A DNA stretch of 64,000 nt from Zhongshania aquimaris (GTDB lineage: Bacteria; Pseudomonadota; Gammaproteobacteria; Pseudomonadales; Spongiibacteraceae): assembly GCF_019312595.1 (NCBI RefSeq), contig NZ_JAHWDQ010000002.1, positions 124,001-188,000 on the forward strand, given 5' to 3'. Below the pieces are notes generated by a model, which saw nothing but the letters and a program-made list of their open reading frames with translations, was not told the DNA's origin and did not search any database. How positions within the stretch are numbered: the stretch's first letter is position 1; every line of letters starts with the position of its first letter. This document shows positions 23,984 through 31,018 of this stretch, piece by piece. A program made the position numbers and the translations under genes.

Positions 23984-24011
23984 ATGTCCGAAATTCAACA
24001 GCGCGTGTCCG
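23984..24011 (+). promoter_or_regulatory. Tandem TGTCCG operator upstream of the monooxygenase gene
   Basis: Two direct repeats, ATGTCCG at 23984-23990 and GTGTCCG at 24005-24011, start 21 bases apart, two turns of the helix, as AraC-type monomer pairs often bind. The first extends to ATGTCCGAAATTC and differs at one base from the half-site at 28377. A possible -10 TAAAAT lies at 24043-24048 with no good -35, which suits activation. Assignment to the AraC regulator at 27246 is inference. Confidence 0.6.
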
Positions 24012-24096
24012 GCCGCCTCATAGAAACCCCTGCCCGTCTCTGTAAAATTGCAACACTCGATTTTCTTAGCGCTCACAAAAATAACAGAGGCTCTCT

Positions 24097-25596
24097 ATGG
24101 CCACGACAAGTTCAAACTCCGATGCAGGCATTACCAGCACTAGAATATTAATTATCGGAACCGGTTTCGCCGGGCTGGGCATGGCAATCCGCTTACAGGA
24201 AATGGGCATCGATGATTTCATTATTATCGAGCGCGCCAACGATGTGGGTGGCACCTGGCGAGACAATCGCTATCCTGGCGCGGCCTGCGATGTACCTTCA
24301 CATTTGTACTCCTTTTCCTTTGAACCCAACGCTGACTGGTCGCGGGTTTATCCTAGCCAACCAGAATTAGAGACATATTTACAAAAGGTCGCAAACAAGT
24401 ATCAGCTGCGTCCACATATTCGCTTTAATCATAATTTGCGCGAAGCGCGCTTTGACGACGCTAGTGGCCGTTGGCTTGTGCGCAGCAGCGGCGGGGATTT
24501 TAGTGCACGCTTCGTGATTAGCGGCAATGGCGGTTTAGCAGAACCAAAACTGCCGGATATACCCGGCGTAGAAGCCTTTGCGGGTCATCATTTTCACTCC
24601 GCAAACTGGGATCACGACTACTCGCTGCCAGGCAAGCGGGTTGCGGTTATTGGCACCGGCGCATCGGCTATCCAGTTTGTACCAGAAATTGCCGGCGTAC
24701 CGGCGAAATTGTCTGTATTCCAGCGCACCCCAAACTGGATAATTCCGCGCGGCGATCGTCCCTATAGCCGCATTGAAAAATGGCTTTTCAAATACATTCC
24801 TATTACACGCAAAATAGTCCGCGCCAAGATTTACTGCCAGAATGAATCGCGGGTACTGGGCATGGTGTTACACCCGTCCCTAATGAATTTATTTCGTCGT
24901 TCGGCTATTAAACATATAGAGCGTCAGGTGGCAGATCCCACACTCAGGCCCAAGCTAACGCCCGATTATCCCATTGGCTGCAAACGAATTTTGGTCTCCA
25001 ATGATTGGTATCCTGCACTGCAAAAGCCGAATGTAGAAGTGGTGACCAAGGGTATACGGGAGGTTCGCGAGCACAGCATTATTACCCAGGACAATATTGA
25101 ACACGAGGTGGATTGTATTATCTTCGGTACGGGTTTTTACGCCACCGACAACCCCATCGCCGCGATGATTTACGGTCGCAATGGCGAGCAATTATCGCAA
25201 ACATGGCAGAACGGCGAAGAAGCGTATTTGGGTTCAAGCGTGCACGGTTTCCCTAATTTCTTTTTTATCGTAGGCCCAAATGTCACCCTTGGTCATAGCT
25301 CGATGGTATACATGATTGAGACCCAAGTTCAGGCGATTAGTCGAATACTACAAGCTTCCGATGAAAGTAATTCTGCTACGGTTGAAGTGAAATTAGACGT
25401 ACAGCGAGAATACAATGAAGGCTTGCAAAAATTATTAGGTGGCTCGATATGGGCGACCGGCTGCGACAGCTGGTATAAACACCGCACGGGGAAAATAACG
25501 CAGTTGTGGCCCGGCTTTACCTTTACCTTCCGTCGTCGCAATAGAAATTTTAAGCGCTCTGACTATATATTTAGCTCACTACAAAATAACAACTAG
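24097..25596 (+). CDS. Baeyer-Villiger-type flavin monooxygenase
   Basis: A 499-residue class B flavoprotein monooxygenase. The FAD-binding GTGFAG is at 21-26 and the NADPH-binding GTGASA at 186-191. Between them lies FAGHHFHSANW (161-171), an exact fit to the Baeyer-Villiger fingerprint FxGxxxHxxxW. DVGGTWRDNRYPGAACD is also typical. Such enzymes insert oxygen beside a ketone to give esters or lactones, or oxygenate hetero-atoms. It is followed after ten bases by a GMC oxidoreductase gene and is clearly in operon with it. The pair suggests alcohol-to-ketone then ketone-to-ester steps on a cyclic or sterol-like compound. Exact substrate unknown. Confidence 0.93.
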   Translation: MATTSSNSDAGITSTRILIIGTGFAGLGMAIRLQEMGIDDFIIIERANDVGGTWRDNRYPGAACDVPSHLYSFSFEPNADWSRVYPSQPELETYLQKVANKYQLRPHIRFNHNLREARFDDASGRWLVRSSGGDFSARFVISGNGGLAEPKLPDIPGVEAFAGHHFHSANWDHDYSLPGKRVAVIGTGASAIQFVPEIAGVPAKLSVFQRTPNWIIPRGDRPYSRIEKWLFKYIPITRKIVRAKIYCQNESRVLGMVLHPSLMNLFRRSAIKHIERQVADPTLRPKLTPDYPIGCKRILVSNDWYPALQKPNVEVVTKGIREVREHSIITQDNIEHEVDCIIFGTGFYATDNPIAAMIYGRNGEQLSQTWQNGEEAYLGSSVHGFPNFFFIVGPNVTLGHSSMVYMIETQVQAISRILQASDESNSATVEVKLDVQREYNEGLQKLLGGSIWATGCDSWYKHRTGKITQLWPGFTFTFRRRNRNFKRSDYIFSSLQNNN

Positions 25597-25606
25597 GTGG
25601 ACAATT

Positions 25607-27238
25607 ATGGCTACTGAGTACGAGTACGATTTCGATGTCATTATTATTGGTTCCGGATTTGGTGGCAGTGTCTCGGCTCTGCGCCTTAGCGAAAAGGGTT
25701 ACTCTGTTGGTGTAATGGAAATGGGCCGCCGCTGGGGCCCCGCGAATATGCCGTCCACCAACTGGAAAGTATGGGATTTTTTATGGCGACCACTTCTTGG
25801 TTTACGCGGATTTTTCAGTTTACGTTTTTTTAAACACGTCATGGTCTTGCACGGCAATGCGGTGGGAGGTGGCTCAGTAACTTATGCAAATACTTTATTG
25901 GTACCGCCGGATTCTGTGTGGTCGGATGGCAGCTGGCAGGGTTTAGACAATTGGCAGGCCGTCATGCCCGATCACTACGCCACCGCAAAACACATGTTGG
26001 GTGTGAATAAAAACCAGCGCTTTGCGGCTGCCGACCGCGCGCTAGAAAAAATGGCCATCGCGCAAGGTAGGCACGACACCTTTTACAAAACCGATGTTGG
26101 TGTTTTCTTCGGCGACGAAGACGACGTGGGCGGCGGTAAAGTGTATGCCGACCCGTATTTTGATGGTGAAGGTCCGGAGCGCTCAAGCTGCATAGGCTGC
26201 GGTAGCTGCATGACCGGTTGTGTCCACAACGCGAAAAATTCTTTAGATAAAAATTATCTTTATCTTGCTGAGAAAAAAGGCGCACGCGTTTTTGAACAAA
26301 CCTGTGTTAGCGATGTACAACCACTAGACGGCAAGGAGGGTGGAACAGGCTACGCGATATTCACCCGTCACGGCACATCGCTAATCACAAAAAATACACG
26401 TCGCTTTACCGCTAAGAAAGTTATTTTTGCCGCGAGCTCCTTAGGTACACAGGAGCTTTTGTTCAAACTCAAGCAATCGGGGTCAATGCCCAATATTTCT
26501 GATGAACTTGGCAATCGCGTTCGCACCAATGCAGAATCCTTACTCGCGCTGCGCTTTCCTGGTGGTGAGGATATGTCAAAGGGTGTGGCTATCGGTTCGG
26601 GTTTCTACCTCGATCAATACACCCATATCGAAGCCACACGCTACGGCAAAGGCCACGATTTATTGAGTTTATTATTTACGCCCCTCACAGGTGGCAAGCC
26701 CGGTTTGCTTAGGCCGTTTTTATGGCTGGCGACGCTTTTAATGTCCCTGCTGCGTCATCCCATAAAAACGCTGCGTGCTTGCAACCCCTTTGGCTTCGCA
26801 AAAGAAACGATTATTTTTCTGTGTATGCAAACCGTTGATGGGCATTTAAATATGCGCTACCGCCGACCTTGGTATTTTCCCTTTACCAAGGTCTTACAAA
26901 CCGAGGGCGAGCCCATCCCGTCCTTTATTCCCGCCGCGAATAAATTTGTGGCTGATAGTGCCGAACAGATGAATGGCACGGGCGCCAGTATGGTGTCGGA
27001 AATATTTTTTAATATTCCAACGACAGCTCATTGTATGGGTGGCTGCGGCATGGGTGAGTCGGCAGAGAGTGGCGTAATTGATAGCCAAAACCGCTTATTC
27101 GGATATCAAAATGCCTATGTTTGCGATGGCTCTATGCTAGGTGCCAACCTCGGCGTGAATCCCAGCTTGACGATCACTGCTCTGACTGAGCGCGCCATGA
27201 GTTTTATACCGAGCAAAGGGTCTATTGCCAGCAATTGA
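25607..27238 (+). CDS. GMC oxidoreductase, cholesterol-oxidase (ChoD-like) group
   Basis: A 543-residue flavoprotein. GSGFGG (15-20) binds FAD. GNAVGGGSVTYANTL is the second GMC signature. The C-terminal HCMGGCGMG and GVNPSLTITAL supply the active-site His and Asn. Cys195, 198, 201 and 205 form CxxCxxCxxxC followed by VHNAKNSLDKNYL, an iron-sulphur-like cluster motif found in the ChoD-like group but not in classical cholesterol oxidases. There is no signal peptide. It begins ten bases after the monooxygenase gene with GGTGG upstream. Probably oxidises a secondary alcohol on a sterol or cyclic substrate. Convergent with the AraC gene. Confidence 0.9.
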   Translation: MATEYEYDFDVIIIGSGFGGSVSALRLSEKGYSVGVMEMGRRWGPANMPSTNWKVWDFLWRPLLGLRGFFSLRFFKHVMVLHGNAVGGGSVTYANTLLVPPDSVWSDGSWQGLDNWQAVMPDHYATAKHMLGVNKNQRFAAADRALEKMAIAQGRHDTFYKTDVGVFFGDEDDVGGGKVYADPYFDGEGPERSSCIGCGSCMTGCVHNAKNSLDKNYLYLAEKKGARVFEQTCVSDVQPLDGKEGGTGYAIFTRHGTSLITKNTRRFTAKKVIFAASSLGTQELLFKLKQSGSMPNISDELGNRVRTNAESLLALRFPGGEDMSKGVAIGSGFYLDQYTHIEATRYGKGHDLLSLLFTPLTGGKPGLLRPFLWLATLLMSLLRHPIKTLRACNPFGFAKETIIFLCMQTVDGHLNMRYRRPWYFPFTKVLQTEGEPIPSFIPAANKFVADSAEQMNGTGASMVSEIFFNIPTTAHCMGGCGMGESAESGVIDSQNRLFGYQNAYVCDGSMLGANLGVNPSLTITALTERAMSFIPSKGSIASN

Positions 27239-27245
27239 ACAACCA

Positions 27246-28265
27246 CTACGGCCCGCGGCCATGCTTGCGCAGTGTACCAGGCGTTTGGCCGCTCATCCGC
27301 TTATACGCTTGGGAAAAGCTAGACGCATCGGCATAACAGAGGCGCTCGGCTATTTGCTCAACGCTAAGCCTTGTGCCGGTCAGCATTTCCTCTGCGAGCG
27401 TCATCCTGATTTCGTCAACTAGCTGTCGAAATGACGTGCTCTCTGCATCCAACTTTCTGCGCAAGGTGCGCGATGTCATACACAGAGATTCGGCCACCAT
27501 CTCCATATCCATCGTCATCGGCCTTTGACGCAGTAGTATGTCACGTACCTTACCAGATATTCCTTTTCGCGCCGTGCGCTTGGCAATAAGCTCCGAGCAT
27601 TGCTTATCTAGCAAGCTAGCGGTGGCGCCGTTGCCAACGACTCTTGGCTCGTCCAATACACTGCGCGGAAACATCAAGGCGTTTTTAGACGCAGAGAATT
27701 CGACTCGCCCGCGGAAAAAACGCTCGTATAGATCACTGTGGGCAGGCCTCGCGTGTTTGAAGGTCACCCACTCTTCTCCAAGCTGCTGCCCCACTATTTC
27801 GCGCATAATTACCATCGCCGCGTGAATCTCTCGCTCGATGGAAAACAGGGCCACATCCGCAGGTACATCAGAGTTATCAAACACCAAACAGGCGCTGTCC
27901 CTCGCCTCTTCTACAACAAACCCAGAAAAGACAAAGGTTAGTTCCTGATAGGTTTGCGATAACTCAACGGCCTTGCGCACCGTTGGGCTGCTAGCCAAAG
28001 CAAAACCCCATATACCATAGGCAGACAGATGGTACCGCTCACCAGCATATAAGCCCAGACCGGCTAGCTCTGGTAACTCACGCTGTAAATTTCGAATGAC
28101 GGCCATTTCGTCACTGGCCTCGACGACCGTTTCCGGGTTGTTCAAACTCTGTTGATTTAAACCCGTATTCAGTAGCAGGGCCGATTGCTTCGCACCGTAT
28201 TCAACACCTAAGGCAACCAATATTTGGACGCTGGTTACGCTTCGGCAAAAATCCCAGGTTTTCAT
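27246..28265 (-). CDS. AraC-family regulator with arabinose-binding-like domain
   Basis: A 339-residue regulator of the OruR/ArgR-like subgroup. It has an N-terminal ligand domain (about 20-210) and a C-terminal double HTH. The latter holds MDMEMVAESLCMTSRTLRRKL and YADASSFSQAYKRMSGQTP, where the FSQAYKR/G-x-x-P pattern is the AraC signature. I start it at the ATG at 28265; 28301 is open but lies in a weakly coding extension. Relatives often activate sterol, alkane or ketone oxidation genes in response to the substrate. It lies between the oxidoreductase pair and the TonB receptor and is likely to control both through the TGTCCG repeats. Confidence 0.9.
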   Translation of the reverse strand: MKTWDFCRSVTSVQILVALGVEYGAKQSALLLNTGLNQQSLNNPETVVEASDEMAVIRNLQRELPELAGLGLYAGERYHLSAYGIWGFALASSPTVRKAVELSQTYQELTFVFSGFVVEEARDSACLVFDNSDVPADVALFSIEREIHAAMVIMREIVGQQLGEEWVTFKHARPAHSDLYERFFRGRVEFSASKNALMFPRSVLDEPRVVGNGATASLLDKQCSELIAKRTARKGISGKVRDILLRQRPMTMDMEMVAESLCMTSRTLRRKLDAESTSFRQLVDEIRMTLAEEMLTGTRLSVEQIAERLCYADASSFSQAYKRMSGQTPGTLRKHGRGP

Positions 28266-28356
28266 TATTTTTCCGGCTTTTTGGCAGCTTATTAAAATCA
28301 AGATTCACTTATTTTTCGTACACCCCTAGCTATGCAAGTCGAGGCGAATGGCGATT

Positions 28357-28383
28357 ATGTCCGCCAGACTCCAGAAATGTCCG
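28357..28383 (+). promoter_or_regulatory. Tandem TGTCCG operator between araC-type gene and TonB receptor
   Basis: ATGTCCG at 28357-28363 and again at 28377-28383 form a direct repeat with a 20-base period. The second half extends to ATGTCCGAATTTC, matching 12 of 13 bases of the half-site at 23984. The same orientation relative to the downstream gene is kept at both loci. It lies 92 bases upstream of the regulator start, so self-control is also possible. Binding is inferred. Confidence 0.6.
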
Positions 28384-28396
28384 AATTTCTACATAG

Positions 28397-28425
28397 CTTA
28401 TCAATTACACTGTGACTCGTATAAT
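28397..28425 (+). promoter_or_regulatory. Promoter of the TonB-dependent receptor
   Basis: A perfect -10 TATAAT sits at 28420-28425. Seventeen bases upstream the -35 position (28397-28402) reads CTTATC, a poor match, and the operator pair ends 13 bases before it. This layout is expected of a promoter that needs an activator. The implied leader before the GTG at 28574 is about 140 bases. The rest of the 308-base gap shows nothing further. Confidence 0.5.
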
Positions 28426-28573
28426 ACTTTTTGCGATCCGGCGTCACATTTTCGACGCCATGCTCTATGCTTAAGACTTAATAATAAATACGCAGTCCTT
28501 CGACTTTAATTTAATTGGTCAGCCTAACGACCAGATTATTGTCGTCGAGACGCTGTGACTTCAGGAGTAAGCC

Positions 28574-31018
28574 GTGGCCCGTTCAAAACTCACCCGTCAG
28601 ATATTTCTTAATACGACTCTCTGTAGCTTGACGCTGCTCACTGCCTCTTATGTGATCGCGGCACCGGCACTCGAGGAGGTGCTGGTTACCGCGCAAAAAC
28701 GCAGCGAAAGCGCCCAAGACATTCCCATTGCCGTGACCGGTGTTAGTGCCGATATGCTGGACAAGCTCGGCTTTAGAAATGCCAACGATGTGTCTGCGCA
28801 AGTTCCCAATATGCAGGTCAGTGGACCCTACGGTGATGTGCAGCCAATTTTCTCTATACGCGGTGTGAGCATGTCGGATTACAGCTCTAACCAAGCCAGC
28901 CCTATTGGTGTATACGTAGATGAAGCCTACTTAGGACCCGTATATAGCCACGGTGCAAACTTCTTCGATATCGAACGTCTCGAAGTACTGCGTGGACCAC
29001 AAGGCACGCTATATGGGAAAAACACCACAGGCGGCGCAATCAATATTATTACTCGCACCCCCGGATTTAGCGGCGAAGGCAGCACGTACATCAAAGGCGG
29101 TATCGGGAGCTATAACGCCACCTCACTCGAGGCCGGCACAGAGGCCGTATTAATTGACGACGTACTTGCCGCACGAATTTCAGGCAGTTTGAAGCGCGAC
29201 GAAGGCTATGCTGAAGTCGTTGGCCAAGATACCAACGCGGCGCAAACCGATTTCCAAGGCCTTCGCCTCAGTCTCAACTGGATTATTAACGACAAACTAG
29301 ACGCAATATTAAAAATCACCAAGTCGGGCAACGATTCCCTAAGCACGCCTGTGCGTCATGAAGCGCGCACAGATCTGCGCGGCACCGGATTAGAAGGTAA
29401 CTCCAATGGTTTTATAGACTATATCGGCTATTCAAGCGGCACCCGCAACCTCGACTTTCATGAAACTGAAGCAAACCGCATCGGCGCATTGATTACCAAT
29501 ACCGAGCTGACGGTGTTAACCATGAATTACAACGCCGACAACTACACGATTACCTCAGTCAGCTCCTATATGGATGCCGATTACTACCAGATGGCAGACA
29601 CCGATGGCAGCCCCAACGGCTTATTGGAAATCACCTGGTCTTCAGACTCTGTGAGCTTCAGCCAAGATCTACGTTTCACCTCTAATTTTGATGGCATGTT
29701 CAATATCATCGCTGGCGTTTACTACGGCAGCGAAGATTTATACATGCAAAATATTTACGACATATTCGACCAAATTCCTGATGTGAGGGTTGGTATAGCC
29801 GAGCCAGATGCTATTCCGATTTTTCCATATTTACTTGACTTTGGCATGATTGATCAGCGCCTGGAAACCAAGAAAACCACTGCAGCGGTATACACACAAA
29901 TGCGCTTCGATTTTACCGCAAATTTCGGCATGGATTTTGGGCTGCGCTACACCGAAGACGACAGCACGCTCAGTTATTTAAATATTTCACGGCTTGGCAA
30001 CGACGGTTCACCAAGGGGTAGCTATGTGCCTGGCAACACCACCGGAACAGACAATGCGTGGATCACATTGCCATTAACAACTTTCGATTTACAAAACCTA
30101 CTCACCAATCCAACAGCGCTTACCAACTATCTGCAGGCGGGTTACACACACGGGCCCTACACACTGGATTCAGCACCAAGATTGGATGCACCAGAGCAGG
30201 AGTTCACCGGTAAACTCGGCCTCGATTATCGCTTTAACGATGACTTAATGGTCTACGGTAGTGTTAGTCGCGGTTATCGCGCCGGCAGTTATAACGGAGG
30301 TGTGTACTACCAGCCACGCCCCATCGAAACCGCTTATGCTTCACCGGAGTTTATCGACGCCTATGAAGTTGGTTTCAAGGCCGACATGGCCGAAGGCAGT
30401 GTGCGTTTAAATGGCGCGGCGTTTCTTTATGACTATACCAACCAACAATTTATCAACGTGGTCGGTATTTCTAATTTCCTAGAGAACGCCGGCGGATCTC
30501 AAATTCTGGGGGCAGAACTGGAGTTGTGGGCGCGCGTTACCGAACGCCTAACATTACAGGCCGCTGCGGGTATACTTGAAACTGAGTACACCGAGTTGTC
30601 ACTTGCAAACACCCAAACTATCGCCGATCAAGAAGACCGTGTCGATCTGTCAGGAAACGAGTTAATCTCCGCGCCAAAGCTAAATGTAAGTTTCTCTGCT
30701 GACTACGACCTGCTTATTACCGAGTATGGATATTTGAGCGTAAACGCCAACGCCAACTTCCAGGACGATCAATGGTTCAGCGCTTACAACGATCAATTTG
30801 GCTATGAAAATATCCGGCAAGAGGCTTACTGGCTCTACAACGGCCGTCTAAGCTGGTATTCCAATGATGGCAGCTACAGCGTGTCGGTATGGGGTAAAAA
30901 TTTATTGGATGAAGAATACGATAGCTACGCCATCAACCTACAAGCCGGTTTTGGTTTCGACTATTATCTCCCCGGTCAGCCGCGTACGTATGGGGCAGAA
31001 GTTCAGTTTAAATTCTAA
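28574..31018 (+). CDS. TonB-dependent outer-membrane receptor
   Basis: An 814-residue receptor with a signal peptide (1-29), a TonB box EEVLVTAQKR just after it, and a plug domain. The plug contains PIFSIRGVSM, VDEAYLG and LEVLRGPQGTLYGKNTTGGA. A 22-strand barrel follows, ending in the aromatic EVQFKF. The start is GTG with CAGGAGTAA upstream. The plug pattern with VTAQKR places it in the group abundant in sphingomonads and marine gammaproteobacteria, often used for organic substrates rather than siderophores. The shared operator motif and the neighbouring oxidoreductases suggest uptake of the compound they oxidise. This last point is inference. Confidence 0.93.
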   Translation: MARSKLTRQIFLNTTLCSLTLLTASYVIAAPALEEVLVTAQKRSESAQDIPIAVTGVSADMLDKLGFRNANDVSAQVPNMQVSGPYGDVQPIFSIRGVSMSDYSSNQASPIGVYVDEAYLGPVYSHGANFFDIERLEVLRGPQGTLYGKNTTGGAINIITRTPGFSGEGSTYIKGGIGSYNATSLEAGTEAVLIDDVLAARISGSLKRDEGYAEVVGQDTNAAQTDFQGLRLSLNWIINDKLDAILKITKSGNDSLSTPVRHEARTDLRGTGLEGNSNGFIDYIGYSSGTRNLDFHETEANRIGALITNTELTVLTMNYNADNYTITSVSSYMDADYYQMADTDGSPNGLLEITWSSDSVSFSQDLRFTSNFDGMFNIIAGVYYGSEDLYMQNIYDIFDQIPDVRVGIAEPDAIPIFPYLLDFGMIDQRLETKKTTAAVYTQMRFDFTANFGMDFGLRYTEDDSTLSYLNISRLGNDGSPRGSYVPGNTTGTDNAWITLPLTTFDLQNLLTNPTALTNYLQAGYTHGPYTLDSAPRLDAPEQEFTGKLGLDYRFNDDLMVYGSVSRGYRAGSYNGGVYYQPRPIETAYASPEFIDAYEVGFKADMAEGSVRLNGAAFLYDYTNQQFINVVGISNFLENAGGSQILGAELELWARVTERLTLQAAAGILETEYTELSLANTQTIADQEDRVDLSGNELISAPKLNVSFSADYDLLITEYGYLSVNANANFQDDQWFSAYNDQFGYENIRQEAYWLYNGRLSWYSNDGSYSVSVWGKNLLDEEYDSYAINLQAGFGFDYYLPGQPRTYGAEVQFKF

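Follow-up and report, generated by a model that had tools for sequence, protein, structure and literature searches.

The 64,000-nucleotide stretch analysed here, referred to throughout as the window, comes from Zhongshania aquimaris (contig NZ_JAHWDQ010000002.1, positions 124,001 to 188,000) and holds a putative AraC-family regulon arranged around two similar operator sequences. Read from 23985 to 31018, the elements are operator 1, a Baeyer-Villiger monooxygenase (BVMO) gene (+), a GMC flavoprotein gene (+), the AraC gene (-), operator 2 and a TonB-dependent receptor gene (+), in that order. The BVMO (499 amino acids; 24097..25596, + strand) matched the Pfam FMO-like family and carried both BVMO fingerprints, FAGHHFHSANWD at residue 161 and GGTWRDNRYPGAAC at residue 51. 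The type I fingerprint FxGxxxHxxxW(P/D) lies between two Rossmann GxGxxG motifs. Here FAGHHFHSANWD was found between GTGFAG at residue 21 and GTGASA at residue 186, in keeping with PMC6304351, whose available passages give a pair of fingerprints plus a pair of Rossmann motifs as the rule for type I enzymes. The best relatives in the PDB were phenylacetone (248 bits), cyclohexanone (244 bits) and steroid (238 bits) monooxygenases; as the three types scored similarly, the BVMO substrate is not fixed by them.

The GMC flavoprotein gene (25607..27238, + strand) starts 11 bases past the end of the BVMO gene. Its product scored 912.8 bits against the cholesterol-oxidase (ChoxAB) model NF058674, above the curated cut-off of 850, and is predicted from this match to be of the cholesterol-oxidase type; in the PDB it matched the cholesterol oxidases 1coy and 1b4v more weakly (about 85-86 bits). 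The AraC gene (27246..28265, - strand) has its first ATG at 28265, while the open reading frame list placed the start at a TTG at 28301. A PF12625 ligand-binding domain (133.6 bits, cut-off 27.6) and an HTH_18 domain (64.1 bits, cut-off 33.6) assign the regulator to the PF12625 type of the AraC/XylS family. Against NCBIfam it fell below every cut-off, the best match being CypR (NF053784) at 160.3 bits, far below the curated 500, so that membership of the CypR type is not supported. CypR controls a P450 alkane hydroxylase. The receptor (814 amino acids; 28574..31018, + strand) matched both Plug (PF07715) and the beta-barrel family PF00593 above cut-off, as expected of TonB-dependent outer-membrane receptors.

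Two matches to TGTCCG-N13..15-TGTCCG were present in the window, both on the + strand (23985-24011 and 28358-28383), and in 100 dinucleotide shuffles of the window the same pair gave a mean of 0.00 and a maximum of 0 matches. The 13-base half-sites ATGTCCGAAATTC (23984) and ATGTCCGAATTTC (28377) were identical at 12 of 13 bases and were the sole zero-mismatch matches to ATGTCCGAAWTTC in the window. With three mismatches allowed, ATGTCCGAAWTTC matched 20 times against 33 expected, so the exact form alone is informative. Operator 1, before the monooxygenase operon (23985..24024, + strand), has TGTCCG A-boxes at 23985-23990 and 24006-24011, a period of 21 bp, followed by the second box CATAGA at 24019-24024. 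Operator 2, before the receptor gene and divergent from the AraC gene (28358..28397, + strand), has A-boxes at 28358-28363 and 28378-28383, a period of 20 bp, and its second box, CATAGC, at 28392-28397. Despite the 1-bp difference in period, the distance from the first TGTCCG to the last CATAG is 34 bases in both.

The two repeat pairs share one orientation, and each is closely followed by a promoter-like site whose -35 is poor. These sites, assigned by sigma-70 consensus match only, are TAGAAA-16-TAAAAT (24021..24048, + strand; 9/12) and TTATCA-16-TATAAT (28398..28425, + strand; 10/12). In a class II AraC-type operator, two direct half-sites lie about two helical turns apart with the proximal one at the -35. 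Both operators have this placement, with periods of 21 and 20 bp: the box at 24019-24024 overlaps the -35 that begins at 24021, and the promoter-proximal half-site of operator 2 ends at 28397, abutting the -35 at 28398. The initial annotation had described direct TGTCCG repeats with a period of 20-21 bp at exactly two places, half-sites agreeing at 12 of 13 bases, a common orientation upstream of poor -35 elements, and products of the Baeyer-Villiger and GMC oxidase kinds; all of these points were confirmed. For the AraC gene, a further promoter-like site was found by consensus match only (28354..28383, - strand), and its -35, CGGACA, is the complement of the operator TGTCCG, so that autoregulation is possible. 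A terminator-like hairpin at 28515-28534, downstream of the receptor promoter and ahead of the receptor gene, may represent a leader structure.

To assess conservation, 18 Zhongshania/Spongiibacter genus genomes were compared, including the window's own (G000). An AraC orthologue (56-100% identity) was present in 11 of them, and a BVMO orthologue (66-100%) in the same 11, the next best BVMO elsewhere reaching 47%; the receptor orthologue was at the locus in 10 of the 11. The operator 1 repeat preceded the BVMO gene in all 11 genomes, as an exact TGTCCG pair in nine and as TGTCCG/TGTCCT at period 21 in G010 and G011. The operator 2 repeat preceded the receptor gene in all 10 genomes that retain the receptor at the locus, with nine exact pairs and TGTCTG/TGTCCG in G007. 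When aligned, the operators shared a longer element, TGTCCG followed about 13 bases on by ACAG or CATAG. The receptor-promoter TATAAT was retained in G006, G016 and G012, was CATAAT in G008, and was not kept in G004, G007, G010, G011 or G020. The remaining AraC-bearing genome, G009, has the AraC and BVMO genes but lacks the receptor there, its best receptor matches at other places being 70% and 58% identical. Beside its AraC gene, a promoter-like TATAAT and one TGTCCG half-site persist, the other box being CGCCCG; we read this half-site as probably left by decay once the target gene had been lost. The relic site (L039, G009:C1, 9090-10890) now precedes an open reading frame of 163 amino acids.

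Across the whole 4.25 Mb genome of Z. aquimaris, the pattern TGTCC-N15/16-TGTCC-N7-9-CATA matched twice, at the two operators only, which suggests a regulon of two promoters. The same pattern gave 12 matches in the 18 genus genomes, of which 11 were at operators and one elsewhere (G019); the reversed control gave 3. With at most one mismatch allowed, the half-site TGTCCGAAWTTCWACA matched 20 times in these genomes, compared with 4 for the control. Seventeen were at operators, two each in eight genomes (counting the leftover half-site of G009) and one in G020, and the other three were in G009, G015 and G018. Since TGTCCGAAWTTCWACA was derived from these sites, matches there were to be expected; the scarcity elsewhere was not.

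The search was extended to 390 genomes of the order, 36 of which had an AraC match at 1e-55 or better. Outside the genus there were 26 such loci (36-43% identity), and in 25 of these a divergent BVMO gene adjoined, its product 46-54% identical to the window BVMO. Twenty-four of the 25 non-genus AraC/BVMO gaps contained TGNCC-N16-TGNCC, a period of 21, facing the BVMO gene. No other period between 8 and 45 reached more than 3 of the 25 gaps, and no pair faced the AraC gene. As background, 41 TGNCC pairs of period 21 were counted in 383,032 strand-bases of 16 loci (operators included), against 3545 bases of gap. In 15 of the non-genus BVMO loci of the order (stretches of 11.5-12 kb), an alpha/beta hydrolase gene directly followed the BVMO gene in 13, and 11 of these 13 also had a short-chain dehydrogenase gene after the hydrolase (Pfam assignments were made on three hydrolases and two dehydrogenases). 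The initial annotation had proposed to look for conservation beside orthologous genes, and this was found: within the genus for both operators, and outside the genus for AraC/BVMO pairs.

Nine named loci from a plasmid collection, of beta- and actinobacterial origin, were also examined (60 to 70 records matched per search). Seven of the nine had a period-21 pair within 400 bases upstream of a related AraC gene and facing away from it. A BVMO at 46-52% identity was present in six of the nine stretches, and pair and BVMO occurred together in five. The two Actinomycetota loci differed, the pair being present in Nocardia farcinica and absent from the Rhodococcus sp. DMU1 stretch. The order in N. 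farcinica was AraC, a divergent BVMO and a cholesterol-oxidase-like GMC gene, the last 44% identical to that of the window and scoring 597 bits with NF058674, below the cut-off of 850. Burkholderia glumae BGR1 had a GMC oxidoreductase gene placed between the AraC gene and a gene annotated as alpha/beta hydrolase that holds the BVMO match. In this plasmid (L181:1-1712) the match falls within a 2466-base "alpha/beta hydrolase" gene, possibly a BVMO-hydrolase fusion. Cupriavidus sp. KK10 (L178:4445) has a related AraC gene and the period-21 repeat; its stretch gave matches resembling short-chain dehydrogenases and none to a BVMO.

From these gene orders, the divergent AraC/BVMO pair sharing one operator looks like the common form, and the order in the window, with AraC between two operators, looks derived. 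A wider generalization is tentative and, on balance, doubtful: that one undescribed AraC/PF12625 lineage, present in Gammaproteobacteria, Betaproteobacteria and Actinomycetota, controls BVMO cassettes through a TGNCC 21-bp operator code, and that the second Zhongshania operator captured a TonB receptor gene to form a dedicated sterol/steroid uptake-oxidation regulon.

For the window itself, the sequence comparisons make it very likely that the local PF12625 regulator (27246-28265) binds both operators and activates the operon of the BVMO and the cholesterol-oxidase-type GMC enzyme as well as the TonB receptor gene. The starting points are direct observations: what the operator sequence is, where it lies relative to the two promoter-like sites, that it is conserved along with the regulator gene, and that it is nearly unique in the genome. 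Because the repeat is kept at the same places in relatives, one local regulator very probably switches on both uptake and oxidation. For binding, activation and ligand, we infer the following scheme. With a ligand held by its PF12625 domain, the regulator would bind as two tandem subunits, the first helix-turn-helix (HTH) of each reading TGTCCG and the second reading ACAG/CATAG, the box some 13 bp downstream. The subunit nearer the promoter would overlap or abut the weak -35 and aid RNA polymerase by class II activation. The regulon would comprise two promoters, one for the BVMO and GMC operon and one for the receptor gene. A hydrophobic alcohol or ketone would be imported by the receptor, the GMC enzyme would convert alcohol to ketone, and the BVMO would convert ketone to ester or lactone. 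In the Zhongshania lineage, the BVMO gene lies on the opposite flank of AraC and has an operator to itself, the divergent place being taken by the TonB receptor gene.

Several observations weigh against this activation by the local regulator. The distance from the second half-site to the -10 is 37 bases in one promoter and 42 in the other, so the two need not share a mode of activation. The strict CATA pattern found no match in five of the 11 AraC-bearing genomes (G007, G009, G010, G011 and G020) and found one of the two operators in G004. Close relatives in the genus set (G006/G016, G004/G007 and G010/G011) are not independent. The receptor family (E value 1e-120 or better) occurs in all 18 genus genomes, also in those lacking this AraC gene. 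Beyond the genus, one of the 26 loci (L167) has the AraC gene without an adjoining BVMO gene, and in one gap (L143) the exact repeat is missing, CGTCC replacing the first box with the spacing unchanged. The bare TGTCCG pair gave 32 matches in the 18 genus genomes against 60 for the reversed pattern, hence no enrichment, and the genome encodes 23 PF12625 regulators, a paralogue among which could also touch TGTCCG boxes.

The last two of these points bear on alternative explanations. That the repeats are chance matches gains something from the bare pair, whose 32 matches divided into 18 at operators, 6 at a paralogous AraC gene and 8 elsewhere, and whose count was discarded as evidence since the reversed control was commoner genome-wide. 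Choosing the 6-mer after the fact also made the window test of the bare repeat a generous one: 14 different + strand 6-mers, TGTCCG included, pair directly at a period of 19-22 in at least two places in the window, and 11 of the 14 involve repeats at about 7.0-9.0 kb. With other 6-mers repeating and the bare pair not enriched, position and conservation, not counting, had to decide. Against chance stands conservation at fixed positions: the repeat is kept before the BVMO gene in 11 of 11 genus genomes, before the receptor gene in 10 of 10, and in 24 of the 25 distant gaps. This makes chance scarcely credible, and the explanation was rejected. Alternatively, the operators could be real and be read mainly by another PF12625 regulator, or several, out of the 23 in the genome. 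The A-box is not private to the local regulator, since a TGTCCG-N15-TGTCCG operator also accompanies a paralogue at C5:590795, whose first recognition helix, MSGRTLRRKL, resembles the local MTSRTLRRKL. However, the second helix of the paralogue differs, as does its second box, TTTCGCA. AraC proteins with two HTH motifs read two boxes per half-site. The likeness of first helix and first box, combined with different second helices and second boxes, fits a reading of TGTCCG by the first HTH and of the second box by the second HTH. Within the genus, moreover, the operators occur where the local AraC gene occurs, and one of them lies in the divergent promoter region of that gene, which makes control by paralogues improbable.

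The local regulator might also bind both sites as a repressor relieved by substrate instead of as a ligand-dependent activator. Precedent comes from Alcanivorax dieselolei B5, in which AlmR is described as repressing almA, and from APR1 of Acinetobacter venetianus RAG-1, which holds down its own gene when alkane is missing (PMC11784139, available passages). The candidate AraC promoter, with its -35 inside the operator, points the same way. Direct repeats that overlap or abut a poor -35 would nevertheless fit activation better, and we regard repression as rather unlikely.

The initial annotation had proposed an AraC regulon for a cyclic or sterol-like compound. Its regulatory half is well supported by the conservation described above, whereas the substrate half is no more than plausible, the cluster GMC gene being present in 7 of the 11 genus clusters. 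A sterol route and a long-chain ketone route are both compatible with the data. That the regulon serves, instead of sterols, secondary alcohols and ketones derived from long-chain alkanes or lipids is a serious possibility, a little short of an even chance. The hydrolase after the BVMO in 13 of 15 non-genus loci, with the dehydrogenase in 11, makes up a set for alcohol, ketone, ester and acid. A subterminal alkane route has been proposed in which ketones are likewise handled by a BVMO together with an esterase, and in Thalassolituus a BVMO and an esterase were raised on C28 compared with C14 alkane and a TonB receptor was raised compared with Tween 80 (PMC6304351, available passages). Against such a substrate, the window GMC enzyme passes the cholesterol-oxidase model, and the N. 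farcinica BVMO gene is likewise trailed by a cholesterol-oxidase-like GMC gene, one below that cut-off. The genome further holds genes resembling KstD (522 of 789 bits), HsaA (380 and 361 of 450), HsaC (281 of 450) and HsaD (160 of 400), none above its cut-off, as well as a 4-hydroxy-2-oxovalerate aldolase above its own cut-off beside the KstD/Hsa-like genes, and eight KshA_C domain matches above the Pfam cut-off; two of the latter proteins matched no NCBIfam family at 1e-20. Gammaproteobacterial sponge isolates grow on cholesterol, and Spongiibacteraceae are among the isolates tabulated in a study that left genome analysis for later (PMC5790920, available passages).

The sterol reading is in turn weakened from within the genus. 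The KshA_C domain occurs in 16 of the 18 genomes, with or without this cluster, and a ChoxAB match above cut-off in all 18. The cluster GMC gene is absent in G012, and an alpha/beta hydrolase gene stands in its place in G010, G011 and G020. A second ChoxAB copy in the Z. aquimaris genome is 59% identical to the cluster copy, and with the occurrence of the family throughout the genus this means that the cluster copy may have another substrate. Elsewhere in the Z. aquimaris genome, two clusters (L177:202-11087 and L176:6545-9840) resemble those for 9,10-seco steroid ring degradation, with KstD-, HsaA-, HsaC-, HsaD- and KshA-like genes and the aldolase.

Among the literature examined, the closest published parallel appears to be SphR of Pseudomonas aeruginosa, a sphingosine-sensing AraC-family activator with direct half-sites TGNCCSNNRNNSNCC 6-8 bp apart (period 21-23) (PMC3900636, as for the other SphR details here, from its available passages). 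Its regulon has three lipid-induced promoters with -35 elements far from consensus, and changing the half-site TG to AA abolishes induction (PMC3900636). The two systems have in common paired direct half-sites at a similar period, a small regulon and poor -35 elements. SphR differs in its targets (sphA, sphBCD and cerN), its ligand and the distal part of the half-site: compared with the published consensus TGNCCSNNRNNSNCC only, TGTCCG fits TGNCCS, and the distal part here is ACAG/CATAG. CdhR, with GGTCGC half-sites and a 15-bp spacer, offers a further half-site parallel (PMC5806209, available passages). In Acinetobacter venetianus RAG-1, APR1 is an AraC-type regulator of the flavin monooxygenase AlmA with a long hydrophobic ligand, n-C32; likened here by description, it differs in that apR1 is not adjacent to almA, and the available passages of PMC11784139 give no operator repeat. 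The pdc progesterone cluster of Caenibius tardaugens is also a small BVMO cluster with adjacent regulators and serves a steroid ketone, but it has a luciferase-like monooxygenase, AraC and TonB are absent from the main-text wording, and no operator is given in the available passages (PMC12239570). For P. aeruginosa PA2096-PA2098, considered as a candidate relative, the literature passages available gave neither operator nor function. The kind of regulon is known; none of the titles listed in the literature searches was on this particular one. One listed title concerns a cholesterol oxidase, ChoxA, of Acinetobacter (PMC8409315).

To our knowledge, few of the receptors or regulators by which Gram-negative bacteria take up sterols or long-chain ketones have been named. 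The comparison turns a repeat noticed by eye into an operator code that can be searched for in any genome and ties an outer-membrane receptor to a defined oxidation step. One regulator with two promoters would also give a direct handle for finding the inducer.

Further observations concern the paralogues and neighbouring genes. The pair of the C5:590795 paralogue (L046:6456-9765; around 590,700) faces a DUF5938/saccharopine-dehydrogenase-like gene and is exact in six genus genomes (G000, G004, G007, G008, G009 and G016); a second PF12625 gene converges on this paralogue. The genome has five receptor genes of the window receptor's family (1e-120 or better), the window's included, and an AraC gene (C1:1408876) lies just before one of them (C1:1410053), whose product is 70% identical to the window receptor. 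Related receptors elsewhere in the genus genomes are 56-71% identical. The NaPi gene of the window had no match in any of the cluster stretches from the genus. The G006 receptor orthologue (G006:C14:36513-38951) was listed with one in-frame TAA. In G006, G016 and G012 (L036:2168-4483; L037, L038), a second, distant TonB receptor gene (27% identical) is divergent from the BVMO gene across operator 1.

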